This document shows positions 16,168 to 26,583 of a stretch of 64,000 nt of DNA, in pieces. How positions within the stretch are numbered: the stretch's first letter is position 1; every line of letters starts with the position of its first letter. A program made the position numbers and the translations under genes. The notes under the pieces were generated by a model. That model had not been told where the DNA came from and did no database searches. It worked only from the letters and a program-made list of their open reading frames with translations. Origin of the DNA: Fibrobacter sp. (GTDB lineage Bacteria; Fibrobacterota; Fibrobacteria; Fibrobacterales; Fibrobacteraceae); the NCBI GenBank assembly GCA_024398965.1, contig JAKSIF010000011.1:1-64000 (forward strand). The letters run 5' to 3'.

Positions 16168-17127
16168 TTATGCTTTTTCAGCGGCAATCTTATCCGCTAG
16201 TTCCTGAACCTTTTCAAGAGGCAACTTGAGGACTCGAGAGACTCGTTCCACAGGGTCATTATCTCGTAGAAGCGCTTCTGCGTCACTGAATTTGGTTTCT
16301 TCACAGCCTTCTTTGTGTCCTTCTTCACGGCCCTCGCGGCGGGCGGTTCCGATGCGTGTACTGATTTCAGCTTCTGTGACCATACCTGTTGCAATCTCCG
16401 TGATAAAGTTCTTCTCGAGGGCGTTCACCGCCAGACGGCTGTAAACATCCGCTATGACGGGATCCTTCGTTTTGGGGGCATCCTTCGCAGAGGCCATCTT
16501 GGTGAAAAGCTCCAGCCATTCCGTCTCGGCAGTGTTCAGGTTCAAGACCTTCGCATCCACCTTACTCAAGTCGATTACAATATACCTTTTTTTATCATAT
16601 ACAGGCAAGGCGCCGGGATCACCGATGCTAGAAAAGCGGAAGAGGCCCAGTTCCTCGCGGTAGCTTTTGCAAAAGCTAACCGGGAAGTTGCAAATCCACA
16701 CGCTGTAGGTTGTAGGCATCAGATAGGGATGGTCTTCCTTCTCGGTCTCGGTGCGCTGGCTGTCAAAGTGAATCTTCGACTCAATGGAAAGCTGGTCCGC
16801 ATAAAGTTCCACGCGGTCCGTAAAATCCTCGTGAGACGCCCGCTGCATCTCCAGATCCACGTATTCTTCATTGTTGAGTTTCGCGTGTACGTCAAAGCGG
16901 ACCTCCTCCACATCGATTGCGGAAGTCAACGTCGACGCAGGCTTCTTGCGCTCGATACTCACGATCTTACGTTCCTCAGGCTGATGCAGCATTGCGTTTA
17001 AAAAGTGAATCAGCGTAACGTCCTTCGAAAAGATTTCCTTGAAGACCTTGTCCCGGGTCGGGTCCAGGAACGCATGCTGTTTAATGATCTCGACTTGTCT
17101 TTCGACTTTTTCTTCAAAAGTTGCCAT
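16168..17127 (-). CDS. Rpn-family PDDEXK nuclease / putative transposase
   Basis: The ATG at 17127 gives 319 residues. The N-terminal half shows the PDDEXK_2 pattern: DPTRDKVFKEIFS, then IDVEEVRFDVHAKLNNEEY with VDLEMQ, giving the D ... E-x-Q core, and RVELYADQL. The C-terminal half has the variable helical tail with ARREGREEGHKEG, common in these proteins. Rpn proteins promote RecA-independent recombination in E. coli and are frequent in Fibrobacter and Bacteroidetes genomes. The core residues look intact, so it may be active. Confidence 0.8.
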   Translation of the reverse strand: MATFEEKVERQVEIIKQHAFLDPTRDKVFKEIFSKDVTLIHFLNAMLHQPEERKIVSIERKKPASTLTSAIDVEEVRFDVHAKLNNEEYVDLEMQRASHEDFTDRVELYADQLSIESKIHFDSQRTETEKEDHPYLMPTTYSVWICNFPVSFCKSYREELGLFRFSSIGDPGALPVYDKKRYIVIDLSKVDAKVLNLNTAETEWLELFTKMASAKDAPKTKDPVIADVYSRLAVNALEKNFITEIATGMVTEAEISTRIGTARREGREEGHKEGCEETKFSDAEALLRDNDPVERVSRVLKLPLEKVQELADKIAAEKA

Positions 17128-17554
17128 TATAATTCCAAAACGGGAACGCCCCCGCAATAGCGCAAGGCGGATTCGCCCTACATACTATAACACGTTTTGA
17201 ACGAGGAAATGTTGCGCGATTTTACGTAAAATAATTGTAAAACGGGAAATCCTTAATGATATCCGCAGCGGGCCGAGAGGGGGTGGCGGAAGACTTTTAG
17301 CCGGGGCGGTTGACCAGGGGGAGCCGTCGGGCGGTACCAAAAACAGCCGCGAGCGGACAACCTGCGGCAGTCCGACTACGCCTTGATGTTATTTTTTTGC
17401 GTTTTTGGATGTTCTAGGCTGTTTTTAGCGATGCCACGGCGTAAAAAAAGGCTGCAGCCAGGGGGAAACTTCCCCCCTATCCCTTGACAAACGACTTGTT
17501 TTTTTCTCTATTTGGAGGCACAATTTTAAGTTTCACCTTTAACGGAGATACAAT
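17128..17554. other. Gene-free spacer, G/C-rich, with a 10-bp inverted repeat
   Basis: No credible coding frame. A 10-base inverted repeat AAAAACAGCC (17339-17348) / GGCTGTTTTT (17417-17426) encloses 68 bases. Further right are a GGCTGCAGCC palindrome and a GGGGGAA/TTCCCCC hairpin. The middle (17250-17400) is clearly more G/C-rich than the neighbouring spacers. The end holds the promoter of the small ribosomal-type gene. It might be a decayed mobile element, but no transposase remnant is seen. Confidence 0.4.
17484..17514 (+). promoter_or_regulatory. Promoter of the small COX24-type gene
   Basis: TTGACA begins at 17484. TCTATTTG (17507-17514) lies 20 bases after TTG; in classical terms TTGACA-N17-TCTATT. 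The start codon is about 40 bases downstream. Confidence 0.55.
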
Positions 17555-17850: not shown

Positions 17851-18804
17851 ATGATTGATCGCAGCAAGCACTTCCTCCGCCTCGCCGACTGGAGCGAAGA
17901 AAGAATTCTCGAAACCGTAGCCATCGCTTCCCGCCTGAAAAAGGAAGTCCATGCAGGCCAGGTCTCCGACCGTCTTCACGGCCAGAACATCGGTATGTTC
18001 TTCGAAAAGCCGTCTCTGCGAACCATCACTACTTTCCAGGTGGGCATGAACCAGCTGGGTGGCCACGCCGTGCTGCTCTCCCCGGACTCCATCGGTCTTG
18101 GCAAGCGCGAATCCATCAAGGATGTGGCCCGCTGCCTTTCCCGCTGGGTGAACGCTCTCGTTGTCCGCTGCTTCAAGCAGGACCTGGTGGAACAGCTGGC
18201 TGAATACGGTTCCATTCCCGTTGTGAACGCCCTGACCGACGACTACCACCCCTGCCAGGCTATCGCCTTCGCCCAGATGATTGAAGAAAATCTCGGCGGT
18301 ATGAAGGGCAAGACTGTGGCCTTCATCGGCGACGGCAACAACGTTGCAAACTCTTTCCTCGCCCTCTGCTCCAAGGTGGGCATGAACTTTACTTTGGCTT
18401 GCCCCAAGGGTTTTGAACAGCCGGCTCACGTGATCGAAGAAGCTCAGGCCGACTTCAAGCGCCACGGCTGCCAGTACCGCGTATTTAACGACCCGAAGGA
18501 AGCTGTCAAGGACGCCGACATCCTTTATAGCGACGTGTGGGTTTCCATGGGTCAGGAAGGTCAGAAGGAATCCAAGCAGAATCACTTCCTGCCGTTCCGC
18601 ATCGACGCAGACCTTTTGAAGTACGCTCCGTCTCACGTGAAGGTTTCCCACTGCCTGCCCGCTCACCGCGGCGACGAAATCACCGACGAAGTGATGGACA
18701 ACCTTGACCTGAACATGAGCTACGAAGAAGCCGAAAATCGCCTCCACGCCCACAAGGCCGTGCTGTGGCAGGTCATGACCGCTACTAGCGAACTCGGCAA
18801 GTAA
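17851..18804 (+). CDS. argF: Ornithine carbamoyltransferase
   Basis: 317 residues with the OTC signatures. The carbamoyl-phosphate loop is FEKPSLRT, with Leu where most carbamoyltransferases have Thr (STRT). DDYHPCQA is followed by the ornithine-binding VWVSMGQ, where SMG is typical of OTC, and the HCLPAHRG motif supplies the catalytic cysteine. The enzyme converts ornithine and carbamoyl phosphate to citrulline, using the product of carB in this window. A TTACA-N5-TGTAA dyad and TATATT lie upstream. argF stands alone here; argD and argB are 14 kb away. Confidence 0.95.
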   Translation: MIDRSKHFLRLADWSEERILETVAIASRLKKEVHAGQVSDRLHGQNIGMFFEKPSLRTITTFQVGMNQLGGHAVLLSPDSIGLGKRESIKDVARCLSRWVNALVVRCFKQDLVEQLAEYGSIPVVNALTDDYHPCQAIAFAQMIEENLGGMKGKTVAFIGDGNNVANSFLALCSKVGMNFTLACPKGFEQPAHVIEEAQADFKRHGCQYRVFNDPKEAVKDADILYSDVWVSMGQEGQKESKQNHFLPFRIDADLLKYAPSHVKVSHCLPAHRGDEITDEVMDNLDLNMSYEEAENRLHAHKAVLWQVMTATSELGK

Positions 18805-18883: not shown

Positions 18884-18916
18884 TCGGCCCGCGAGAGATC
18901 GCGGGTCTTTTTTTTG
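18884..18916 (+). terminator. Terminator after argF
   Basis: CCCGCGA-GAGA-TCGCGGG is followed by TC and eight T residues. An additional small TTCCCGG/CCGGGAA hairpin precedes it right after the argF stop. Confidence 0.75.
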
Positions 18917-19052: not shown

Positions 19053-19315
19053 AAATTAGGACTAATCCCGCAGATTCGGTATATTAGTCCTAGCCAGCCC
19101 ATCACAAACTAGGACTATTCCCGCAGATTCGGCAAATTAGTCCTAGCCAGCCCATCACAAACTAGGACTATTCCCGCAGATTCGGTAAATTGGTCCTAGC
19201 CGGCTCATCACAAGCTAGGACTATTCCTGCAGATTCGGTAAATTGGTCCTAGCCAGCCCATCACAAACTAGGACTATTCCCGCAGATTCAATAAATTAGT
19301 CCTAGCCAGCCCGAT
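19053..19315. repeat. Five-copy 53-bp tandem repeat of perfect dyads
   Basis: The phrase AGGACTA recurs at 19058, 19111, 19164, 19217 and 19270, exactly 53 bases apart. In each unit CTAGGACTA (TTAGGACTA in the first) pairs with TAGTCCTAG (TGGTCCTAG in two) across a 20-base middle that itself is conserved (TTCCCGCAGATTCGG...). The units are joined by a conserved CCAGCCCATCACAA linker. Few base changes separate the copies, so they are recent or under selection. No protein is encoded. It lies between argF and the glutamine amidotransferase gene. Confidence 0.9.
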
Positions 19316-19414: not shown

Positions 19415-20116
19415 ATGGAAACTTACATTTTTCAGCATGTAGAATACGAAGGCCCGGGAGCAATCCTCCCCTACCTGGAAGCCAAGGGCCACAAGGTTCA
19501 CCTGATTCGCCTTTACGCAGGCGACAAGATTCCCCACGAAGATGAAATTGAGTTCGCCATTTTGATGGGCGGCCCCATGAGTGTCCTGGACGAAACTGAA
19601 CATCCCTATTTCGTACGCGAAAAGGAACTCTGCCGCGACATGGTGCAACTGGGCAAGCCTCTTCTCGGCATTTGCCTGGGAGCCCAGATGATTGCAAGCG
19701 CATTTGGCGCCGCCATCAAGAAAAATCCCGAAAAGGAGATTGGCTGGTTTCCTGTAAGTTTTGACGCTAGCGTCGAAGGCGGCAACAAGGTTTTGGACCT
19801 GCCCAAGAAACTGCAGGCTTTCCATTGGCACGGCGAAACCTTCGACATCCCCGAAGCGGCAACATCTTTCGCCAGCAGTGAAGCCTGCAAGAATCAGGCA
19901 TTCAAGCTGGGCAGTGCCATCGCCTTGCAGTTCCATGTTGAAGTCACCGATGATTCCATGGAAAGCATGTTGAAGAACGGTGCCGAAGAAATTGAAGCCT
20001 GCGCAGGTTGCAAGTTTGTACAGAACGCAGCTGAAATCAAAAAGGCCAGCGCAGCAAACATGGACAAGGCAAACAAGGCCTTGGTCAAGATTCTTGATTT
20101 TGTGTTAAAGAAGTAG
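19415..20116 (+). CDS. Class I glutamine amidotransferase-like protein
   Basis: 233 residues with the GATase-1 fold: ILMGGPMSVLDE (oxyanion region), the nucleophile in GICLGAQMIASAFG, FHWHGETFDIP, and the His-Glu pair in ALQFHVEVTDDSM. It resembles the stand-alone GMP-synthase-glutaminase-like family rather than a subunit of a known biosynthetic enzyme; E. coli-type relatives act on gamma-glutamyl compounds. The synthase or acceptor partner is not evident. It precedes the hotdog thioesterase gene by 21 bases, probably in one transcript. Confidence 0.82.
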   Translation: METYIFQHVEYEGPGAILPYLEAKGHKVHLIRLYAGDKIPHEDEIEFAILMGGPMSVLDETEHPYFVREKELCRDMVQLGKPLLGICLGAQMIASAFGAAIKKNPEKEIGWFPVSFDASVEGGNKVLDLPKKLQAFHWHGETFDIPEAATSFASSEACKNQAFKLGSAIALQFHVEVTDDSMESMLKNGAEEIEACAGCKFVQNAAEIKKASAANMDKANKALVKILDFVLKK

Positions 20117-26178: not shown

Positions 26179-26583
26179 ATGGCTGAAAAGAAAGTTGCTA
26201 AGAAGACTGCCGCTAAGCCGGCTGCTAAGAAGGTTGTAGCTAAGGCTGCTGCTAAGCCCGCTGCAAAGAAGGCTGCCCCCAAGGCTGCTGCTAAGAAGGC
26301 TGCTCCGAAGGCTGCTGCTAAGCCCGCTGCAAAGAAGGCCGCCCCCAAGGCTGCTGCTAAGCCGGTTGCTAAGAAGGCTGCTCCGAAGGCTGCTGCTAAG
26401 CCGGTCGCTAAGAAGGCTGCTCCGAAGGCTGCTGCTAAGCCGGTTGCTAAGAAGGCTGCTCCGAAGGCTGCTGCTAAGAAGGCCGCTCCGAAGGCTGCCG
26501 CCAAGCCGGTTGCTAAGAAGGCTGCTCCGAAGGCTGCTGCCAAGAAGGCTCCCGCTAAGAAGGCTCCTGCTAAGAAGAAGTAA
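26179..26583 (+). CDS. Histone H1-like lysine/alanine-rich DNA-binding protein
   Basis: 134 residues made almost only of Lys, Ala, Pro and Val. Repeats of AAPKAAAKPVAKKAAPKAAA and variants run through the whole protein, ending AKKAPAKKAPAKKK. This matches bacterial H1-like (Hc1/AlgP-type) chromatin proteins that bind DNA without sequence preference. The gene is therefore a tandem DNA repeat and likely to vary in copy number. It has a GGAAG ribosome site and strong terminator; expressed alone. Confidence 0.88.
   Translation: MAEKKVAKKTAAKPAAKKVVAKAAAKPAAKKAAPKAAAKKAAPKAAAKPAAKKAAPKAAAKPVAKKAAPKAAAKPVAKKAAPKAAAKPVAKKAAPKAAAKKAAPKAAAKPVAKKAAPKAAAKKAPAKKAPAKKK

Follow-up and report, generated by a model that had tools for sequence, protein, structure and literature searches.

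The window analysed here, a stretch of 64,000 nt from Fibrobacter sp. (GCA_024398965.1, contig JAKSIF010000011.1, positions 1-64,000; the source genome is coded G000), carries a tandem array of inverted repeats between two genes, and the question that it raises is what recognises such a structure, as DNA or as RNA. The array and its neighbours are as follows:

17851..18804, + strand: carbamoyltransferase gene, argF-like, left neighbour, with OTCace domains; ends 253 bp before the array
18886..18907, + strand: terminator-like hairpin with T run, 3' of the carbamoyltransferase gene; consensus match only
19057..19092, strand not applicable: dyad 1, TAGGACTA-N20-TAGTCCTA
19110..19145, strand not applicable: dyad 2, TAGGACTA-N20-TAGTCCTA
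19163..19198, strand not applicable: dyad 3, right arm with 1 mismatch (TTGGTCCTA)
19216..19251, strand not applicable: dyad 4, right arm with 1 mismatch (TTGGTCCTA)
19269..19304, strand not applicable: dyad 5, TAGGACTA-N20-TAGTCCTA
19415..20116, + strand: class-I glutamine amidotransferase (GATase) gene, right neighbour; starts 110 bp past the array

The five dyads (19057-19304, TAGGACTA-N20-TAGTCCTA) follow each other start to start at 53, 53, 53 and 53 bp, and TRF returned a period of 53 with 4.9 copies and 91% matches, which bears out the five units at an exact 53-bp period described in an earlier note on this DNA. The "perfect dyads" of that note are found in three of the five copies (1, 2 and 5, perfect over 8 bp), whereas copies 3 and 4 each carry a single mismatch in the right arm (TTGGTCCTA). 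Similarly, its 9-bp inverted repeat is present in copies 2-5 when the flanking C/G is counted, but the left edge of copy 1 reads T in place of that C. The centre of the window dyads is exactly 20 bases, and its conservation, also claimed earlier, is a trait that this array has in common with the C62 array, whereas the centres differ from dyad to dyad in most sister arrays. Elsewhere in the window, a PDDEXK_2 (PF12784) gene close to the array (16168-17157, minus strand) was not recovered as a member of the array-linked protein family described below, and positions 26181-26577 hold a coding tandem repeat with many lysine, alanine and proline codons.

Related arrays and their helical phase

The genome-wide search for the unit, proposed beforehand and run on the whole of G000 with TAGGACTA-N15..26-TAGTCCTA, gave 26 exact sites, all of them N20, and the dyads keep this fixed N20 also where spacers of 10-40 were allowed. 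With up to 3 mismatches, 47 sites were found in G000 compared to 23 for a reversed-pattern control, so that the weakest matches are partly due to chance. Beyond the window array, G000 holds ~40 further dyads in about a dozen arrays. The features conserved across arrays are the arms, the 20/21-bp spacer and the helical phase, with unrelated centres and linkers. A masked comparison of the arrays in G000 and in G032 found no similarity outside the arms; in G028, the third genome in this copying test, the two gene-flanking arrays are related to each other. Because no sequence outside the arms is common to the arrays of G000 and G032, the arms and the phase are under selection rather than copied.

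In a de novo dyad search covering 857 kb of G000, pairs of perfect 7-bp dyads with common arms, no more than 180 bp apart, occurred almost only at spacers of 15-24, with 0 or 1 such pair at each of the other spacer lengths within 6-44, so that the dyads exceed chance. The perfect core ACTAA-N17..19-TTAGT accounts for 14 dyads in the same 857 kb, all inside arrays, and in 11 of these 14 the outer 4 bases are fully symmetric; depending on the array, the outer bases in G000 are TAGG, GGTT, TAGT, TGTC or GGGT. The notion of a single genome-wide arm sequence was dropped once such other arm types appeared. The exact arm type of the window was found in 9 out of 61 genomes of the genus, looser patterns revealing other arm types in more genomes. 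When a single genome of each bacterial and archaeal species was scanned, the same arrays, with 53-bp periods, came up in Fibrobacter and in rumen Clostridiales MAGs. Five species have an array at the DsbD/GT4 junction; its arms are TAGG in three of them and GTAGGCTA in the other two, and its spacings have changed between species. A pattern scan of IMG/VR gave six single matches and no arrays. In several Clostridiales MAGs (L041, L051, L054, L059, L064), TATACCCCCTGGGGGTATA-like palindromes that resemble CsoR-type operators lie beside the arrays, and in L059 such a palindrome adjoins a CsoR-like gene.

For the phase analysis, 50 arrays with 182 dyads were used, in which the spacer between GGACTAAA and TTTAGTCC is 16 bases (111 dyads) or 17 bases (63 dyads). 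Their 132 spacings cluster at 53, 63, 74, 84, 95, 106 etc. (R 0.937 at 10.53 bp). The array regions and arms of this sample had been settled ahead of the phase measurement, though the arrays were located by eye and by pattern, so that the sample is non-random. When each spacing is counted once per genome (n=71), R is 0.904, whereas the highest value among 2000 random sets was 0.42. Across Fibrobacter and the rumen Clostridiales MAGs, 125 of the 132 linkers are no more than 1 bp from a multiple of 10.5 bp. Arrays upstream of genes, collected by a finding rule that is independent of phase, yielded 109 spacings with R 0.944 at 10.54. The quantisation holds over 5 to 17 turns. Because the linkers are quantised at 10.5 bp and the spacer is conserved, the arrays are best read as sites of a protein on one DNA face, not as RNA hairpins or CRISPR. 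As far as sequence can speak, there is strong support for the earlier proposal that a protein binds on one DNA face, both from the quantised spacings in many unrelated arrays and from a candidate reader whose N-terminal residues covary with the arms.

A candidate reader family

The candidate readers are proteins of ~275 aa with an N-terminal domain and a C-terminal PD-(D/E)XK-like domain. The family came to light because related genes adjoin three arrays, two of them in G000 and the third in G028, and tblastn on the loci then examined gave seven members, all adjoining arrays. It is present in 53 of 80 genomes searched, including 6 of 6 Clostridiales genomes tested. An upstream array was found at 29 of the 30 best homolog loci versus 4 of 58 control loci, and those four are genuine trans arrays. 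In a set of 93 homolog loci, which includes those 30 as well as a few duplicates and for which the threshold was fixed beforehand, 76 have a phased array directly upstream, comprising 28 arm types; a relaxed search found no array at the remaining 17, nine of which are Clostridiales. These cis arrays lie 60-550 bp upstream of the reader gene. The gene of TAGG type in G000, which is the arm type of the window, is at C5:70375-71181, and its upstream array is TAGG with N20. At the level of sequence, then, the family usually has a phased upstream array, its arm type is characteristic of the protein subtype, and arrays with the same arms are present elsewhere in the same genomes.

Some arrays of GGTT and TAGT type are without a matching gene in the G000 assembly (C4:78333-78540, C25 (L016:10823-10960), C4:30327-30560 and C78 (L021:6806-6995)), and genes matching GGTT/TAGT arms were found in other species (L251, L257, L267). 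In three species, dnaA has a family member at a distance of a few kb (G000 C5:70375-75921, G077 C7:99158-104161 and G023 C45:83100-88296), with arm types that differ, namely TAGG in one and AAGG in two. A subgroup including G000:C28:710-1639 and several homologs elsewhere carries additional residues close to position 193, in a single open frame.

There is no Pfam or NCBIfam model for the family. Its C-terminal part resembles the PADLOC candidate PDC-S68 with an E of about 1e-25, and residues E171, D202, E217 and H218 are conserved at 98-100%. The acidic residues of a PD-(D/E)XK site are present as E171, D202 and E217, with H218 at the position of the usual lysine, which makes it a variant site; we regard this C-terminal domain as PD-(D/E)XK-like, with a putative nuclease fold. 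The structure model has a mean pLDDT of 43.9, with only the N-terminal part moderately confident and the C-terminal part mostly <40, and neither a PDB sequence search nor Foldseek with this poor C-terminal model gave a significant match. No family member was found in a protein scan of IMG/VR, and plasmid and phage collections contained no full-length homolog; the matches there were confined to the C-terminal part and fell on helicase-nucleases and on short contigs lacking annotation.

Arm type agrees with the phylogeny of the proteins, with 30 changes for 28 types compared to a shuffled mean of 59.4 and minimum of 54. This could reflect linkage, because cis linkage alone would give it. In the clade with ACATACTA, GGGCRTATA and TACCTATA arms, each arm type is spread over separate branches of the tree, and even so the identity of residues 47, 49 and 50 goes with arm type. 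The mean mutual-information excess in this clade is five times higher in the N-terminal part (0.154) than in the C-terminal part (0.031), a covariation that is exploratory in that the authors derived the labels from the dyads themselves and selected the columns, out of all columns, for how strongly they were associated. An independent-pairs test in the clade had 2-3 supported pairs, too few to reach significance. The three residues fall in a predicted N-terminal beta-hairpin, modelled with moderate confidence.

In a prediction test, 10 out of 10 genomes with a gene of ACATACTA type carried at least one ACATACTA dyad, some of these counts including the gene's own array. The dyads number 33 in G006 and 15 in G071, at many loci, and any were present in 18 of the 80 genomes. 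Eight genomes have ACATACTA dyads with no gene of that type observed, and in G018, G061 and G067 such dyads are present and the genes found are of another arm type. A homolog is present in every one of the 12 Fibrobacter genomes that carry 4 or more GACTAA dyads (p 0.002; the p-values of this association ignore genome kinship). Judged by covariation, the proteins of this family apparently bind their cognate arrays.

Placement of the arrays, proposed mechanism and rival explanations

Among classified trans arrays, 17 of 35 lie between convergent genes compared to 19.5% of comparable junctions (p 1e-4), the junction classes coming from a simple gene caller and Pfam evidence suggesting a few more convergent cases. 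An exclusive location at convergent junctions was therefore reduced to a preference; the window array itself is at a tandem junction between co-directional genes. Some arrays are upstream of other genes, such as the array of L020 and the window array ahead of the GATase gene. A second motif, TTA[ACG]TTTGT, is ~30 times denser in array spans than in their flanks, an optimistic figure because it was noticed and counted in the same arrays; its density of 1.0 per kb in the gene-upstream set supports the enrichment. None of the 74 linkers <50 bp contains it, compared to 15 of the 54 longer linkers, and ahead of paralog genes it is mostly on the minus strand (52 versus 6). In long linkers it occurs at set distances from the next dyad (L012, L014, L029, L036, L037, L095-L099, L109-L112), and it is found upstream of many homologs too. 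The motif may be the site of a second factor.

Our model, which we consider probable, is that proteins of the family read the arrays. In this protein-array system the window array would serve as a binding platform at a distance from the reader gene (in trans). One dimer would occupy each dyad, with the N-terminal beta-hairpins reading the outer arm bases, and neighbouring dimers would bind cooperatively on one DNA face. Longer linkers would be bridged by bending or looping, perhaps aided by the second factor at TTAVTTTGT. The array ahead of the reader gene would be an autoregulatory operator, and autoregulation at the reader's own gene seems fairly likely. Trans arrays might serve as boundary or roadblock platforms that separate transcription units or organise the chromosome. 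Because they prefer convergent gene junctions, such a role would weakly be the best fit to their position, with a small regulon as the main rival; taken by itself, the boundary role is doubtful. The window array lies between co-directional genes, with the start of the GATase gene 110 bp downstream, and may equally well act on the GATase promoter. A broader proposal, to which we give a little less than even weight, is an undescribed kind of genetic system in which fast-diversifying nuclease-fold proteins, each with its own arm code, assemble in helical register on the phased arrays, both ahead of their own gene and at gene boundaries across the chromosome, and at these boundaries mark or process the ends of transcription units.

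The reader could instead be an ordinary autoregulated transcription factor, with the trans arrays as operators of a small regulon and the PD-(D/E)XK-like domain in a structural role. That arrays precede the reader's own gene, and in some cases (the window array and that of L020 among them) other genes, is as expected of a regulon. But 9 of the 15 classified array-flanked junctions in G000 are gene ends, not promoters, and the nuclease-like domain has kept its acidic residues almost without exception, which leaves this explanation unlikely. A defence system, in which the nuclease is held on chromosomal arrays and is released or directed against invading DNA, would account for the similarity to PDC-S68 (E about 1e-25) and for the many paralogs with divergent specificity and patchy distribution. 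PDC-S68, however, is itself a candidate and much longer, and only its nuclease-like domain matches; no defence genes were seen beside the reader in the neighbourhoods read, and no full-length homolog on phages or plasmids in the collections searched, so we find defence rather improbable.

The arrays could also belong to a REP-like mobile repeat family, the reader being a transposase-like nuclease and the trans arrays its non-autonomous copies. Such a family would explain a nuclease-like gene adjoining repeats, dispersed intergenic repeats with a convergent bias and species-specific families, an outline shared by REPtrons (PMC3733652). We judge it improbable in view of the absence of homology past the arms in G000 and G032, the phase that is kept while linker sequence is not, the array retained across species with changed spacings at the DsbD/GT4 junction, and the lack of any HUH transposase. 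The hairpin RNA array that the earlier note offered as its other option fared worst. If the arms encoded intergenic RNA hairpins that act as terminators or processing sites, and the helical phase were incidental, the dyad symmetry, the nearness to stop codons and the T/A runs at outer dyads in several arrays would find an explanation. The window array does fold better than shuffles (z -4.8), but any inverted repeat folds well and folding is uninformative. A 10.5-bp phase is meaningless for RNA, yet it extends over 5 to 17 turns with a near-fixed 20/21-base loop; in G028 the T runs are on the wrong side for terminators, arrays are upstream of genes too, and the arms covary with a predicted protein hairpin. 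An Rfam scan of the window array region gave sub-threshold chance matches only, none over the array and thus no family match, and a terminator scan gave no terminator-like site within the window array, where the loop is 20 bases; an intrinsic terminator has a short loop on a GC-rich stem, followed by a T run. RNA hairpins are thus highly improbable, and a protein reading the arrays as DNA is the explanation we prefer.

Relation to known systems

No description of the reader family or of the arrays was found in the open-access papers and named databases searched, and the protein-array system is apparently undescribed in that sense. If the model is true, it provides an uncharacterised family, present in Fibrobacter and in rumen Clostridiales, with a DNA target, a region that recognises this target and an arm code that can be tested. 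Spacings in whole turns, from 5 up to 17, would clearly document, in a natural setting, that proteins assemble cooperatively on one DNA face, and the arrays at orthologous junctions, with arms kept and other sequence lost or with arm type changed, would constitute a natural experiment on how dispersed sites evolve together with their reader.

The earlier verdict that the array is not CRISPR is right, although the reason then given, a repeated middle, is local to the window array and the middle is variable elsewhere. A CRISPR array has identical repeats with unique spacers of constant length between them. CRISPR was rejected since trans arrays have linkers of 10 to 146 bp that differ by whole turns, and in the window the linker is repeated as well as the centre. 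Integrons have attC core sites of the form GTTRRRY with cassette genes between the sites; an integron attC array was rejected because the arms differ from these core sites and the linkers are too short for cassettes. BirA and NikR are dimeric regulators whose operators have widely spaced half-sites. Operators of this type resemble the present dyads in their inverted half-sites, long fixed spacer and position upstream of the regulator's own gene, whereas the present arrays comprise 3-7 dyads in helical register and are also found at gene ends, the reader has a nuclease-like domain and there are many arm types per genus. PDC-S68 shares a homologous C-terminal PD-(D/E)XK-like domain, but its models are >1200 aa, do not match the N-terminal domain and are defined without a phased array.

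Intergenic palindromes at gene 3' ends are also known from the BIME/REP sites of E. coli, which are bound by gyrase and are proposed to deal with transcription-induced supercoiling (cited in PMC3733652). The arrays share this location, but BIME/REP sites are without a dedicated, linked and covarying protein and have another sequence and geometry. In REPtrons (RAYT/TnpAREP), palindromes lie beside the gene and are dispersed between genes, with enrichment between convergent or co-directional genes and coevolution of protein and repeat (PMC3733652, PMC8266576). The same layout is seen here, with arrays by the gene at 76 of 93 loci and arrays of matching arms elsewhere. The HUH (Y1) transposase is absent, however, the reader matching no HUH family and its C-terminal part matching PD-(D/E)XK-like PADLOC models instead; the dispersed units are not copies of one element, given the lack of homology outside the arms in G000 and G032; and the palindromes are double-strand dyads with a 20-bp centre in helically phased arrays, not hairpins. 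REPtrons are the nearest analogue in layout, with three defining features that differ or fail.
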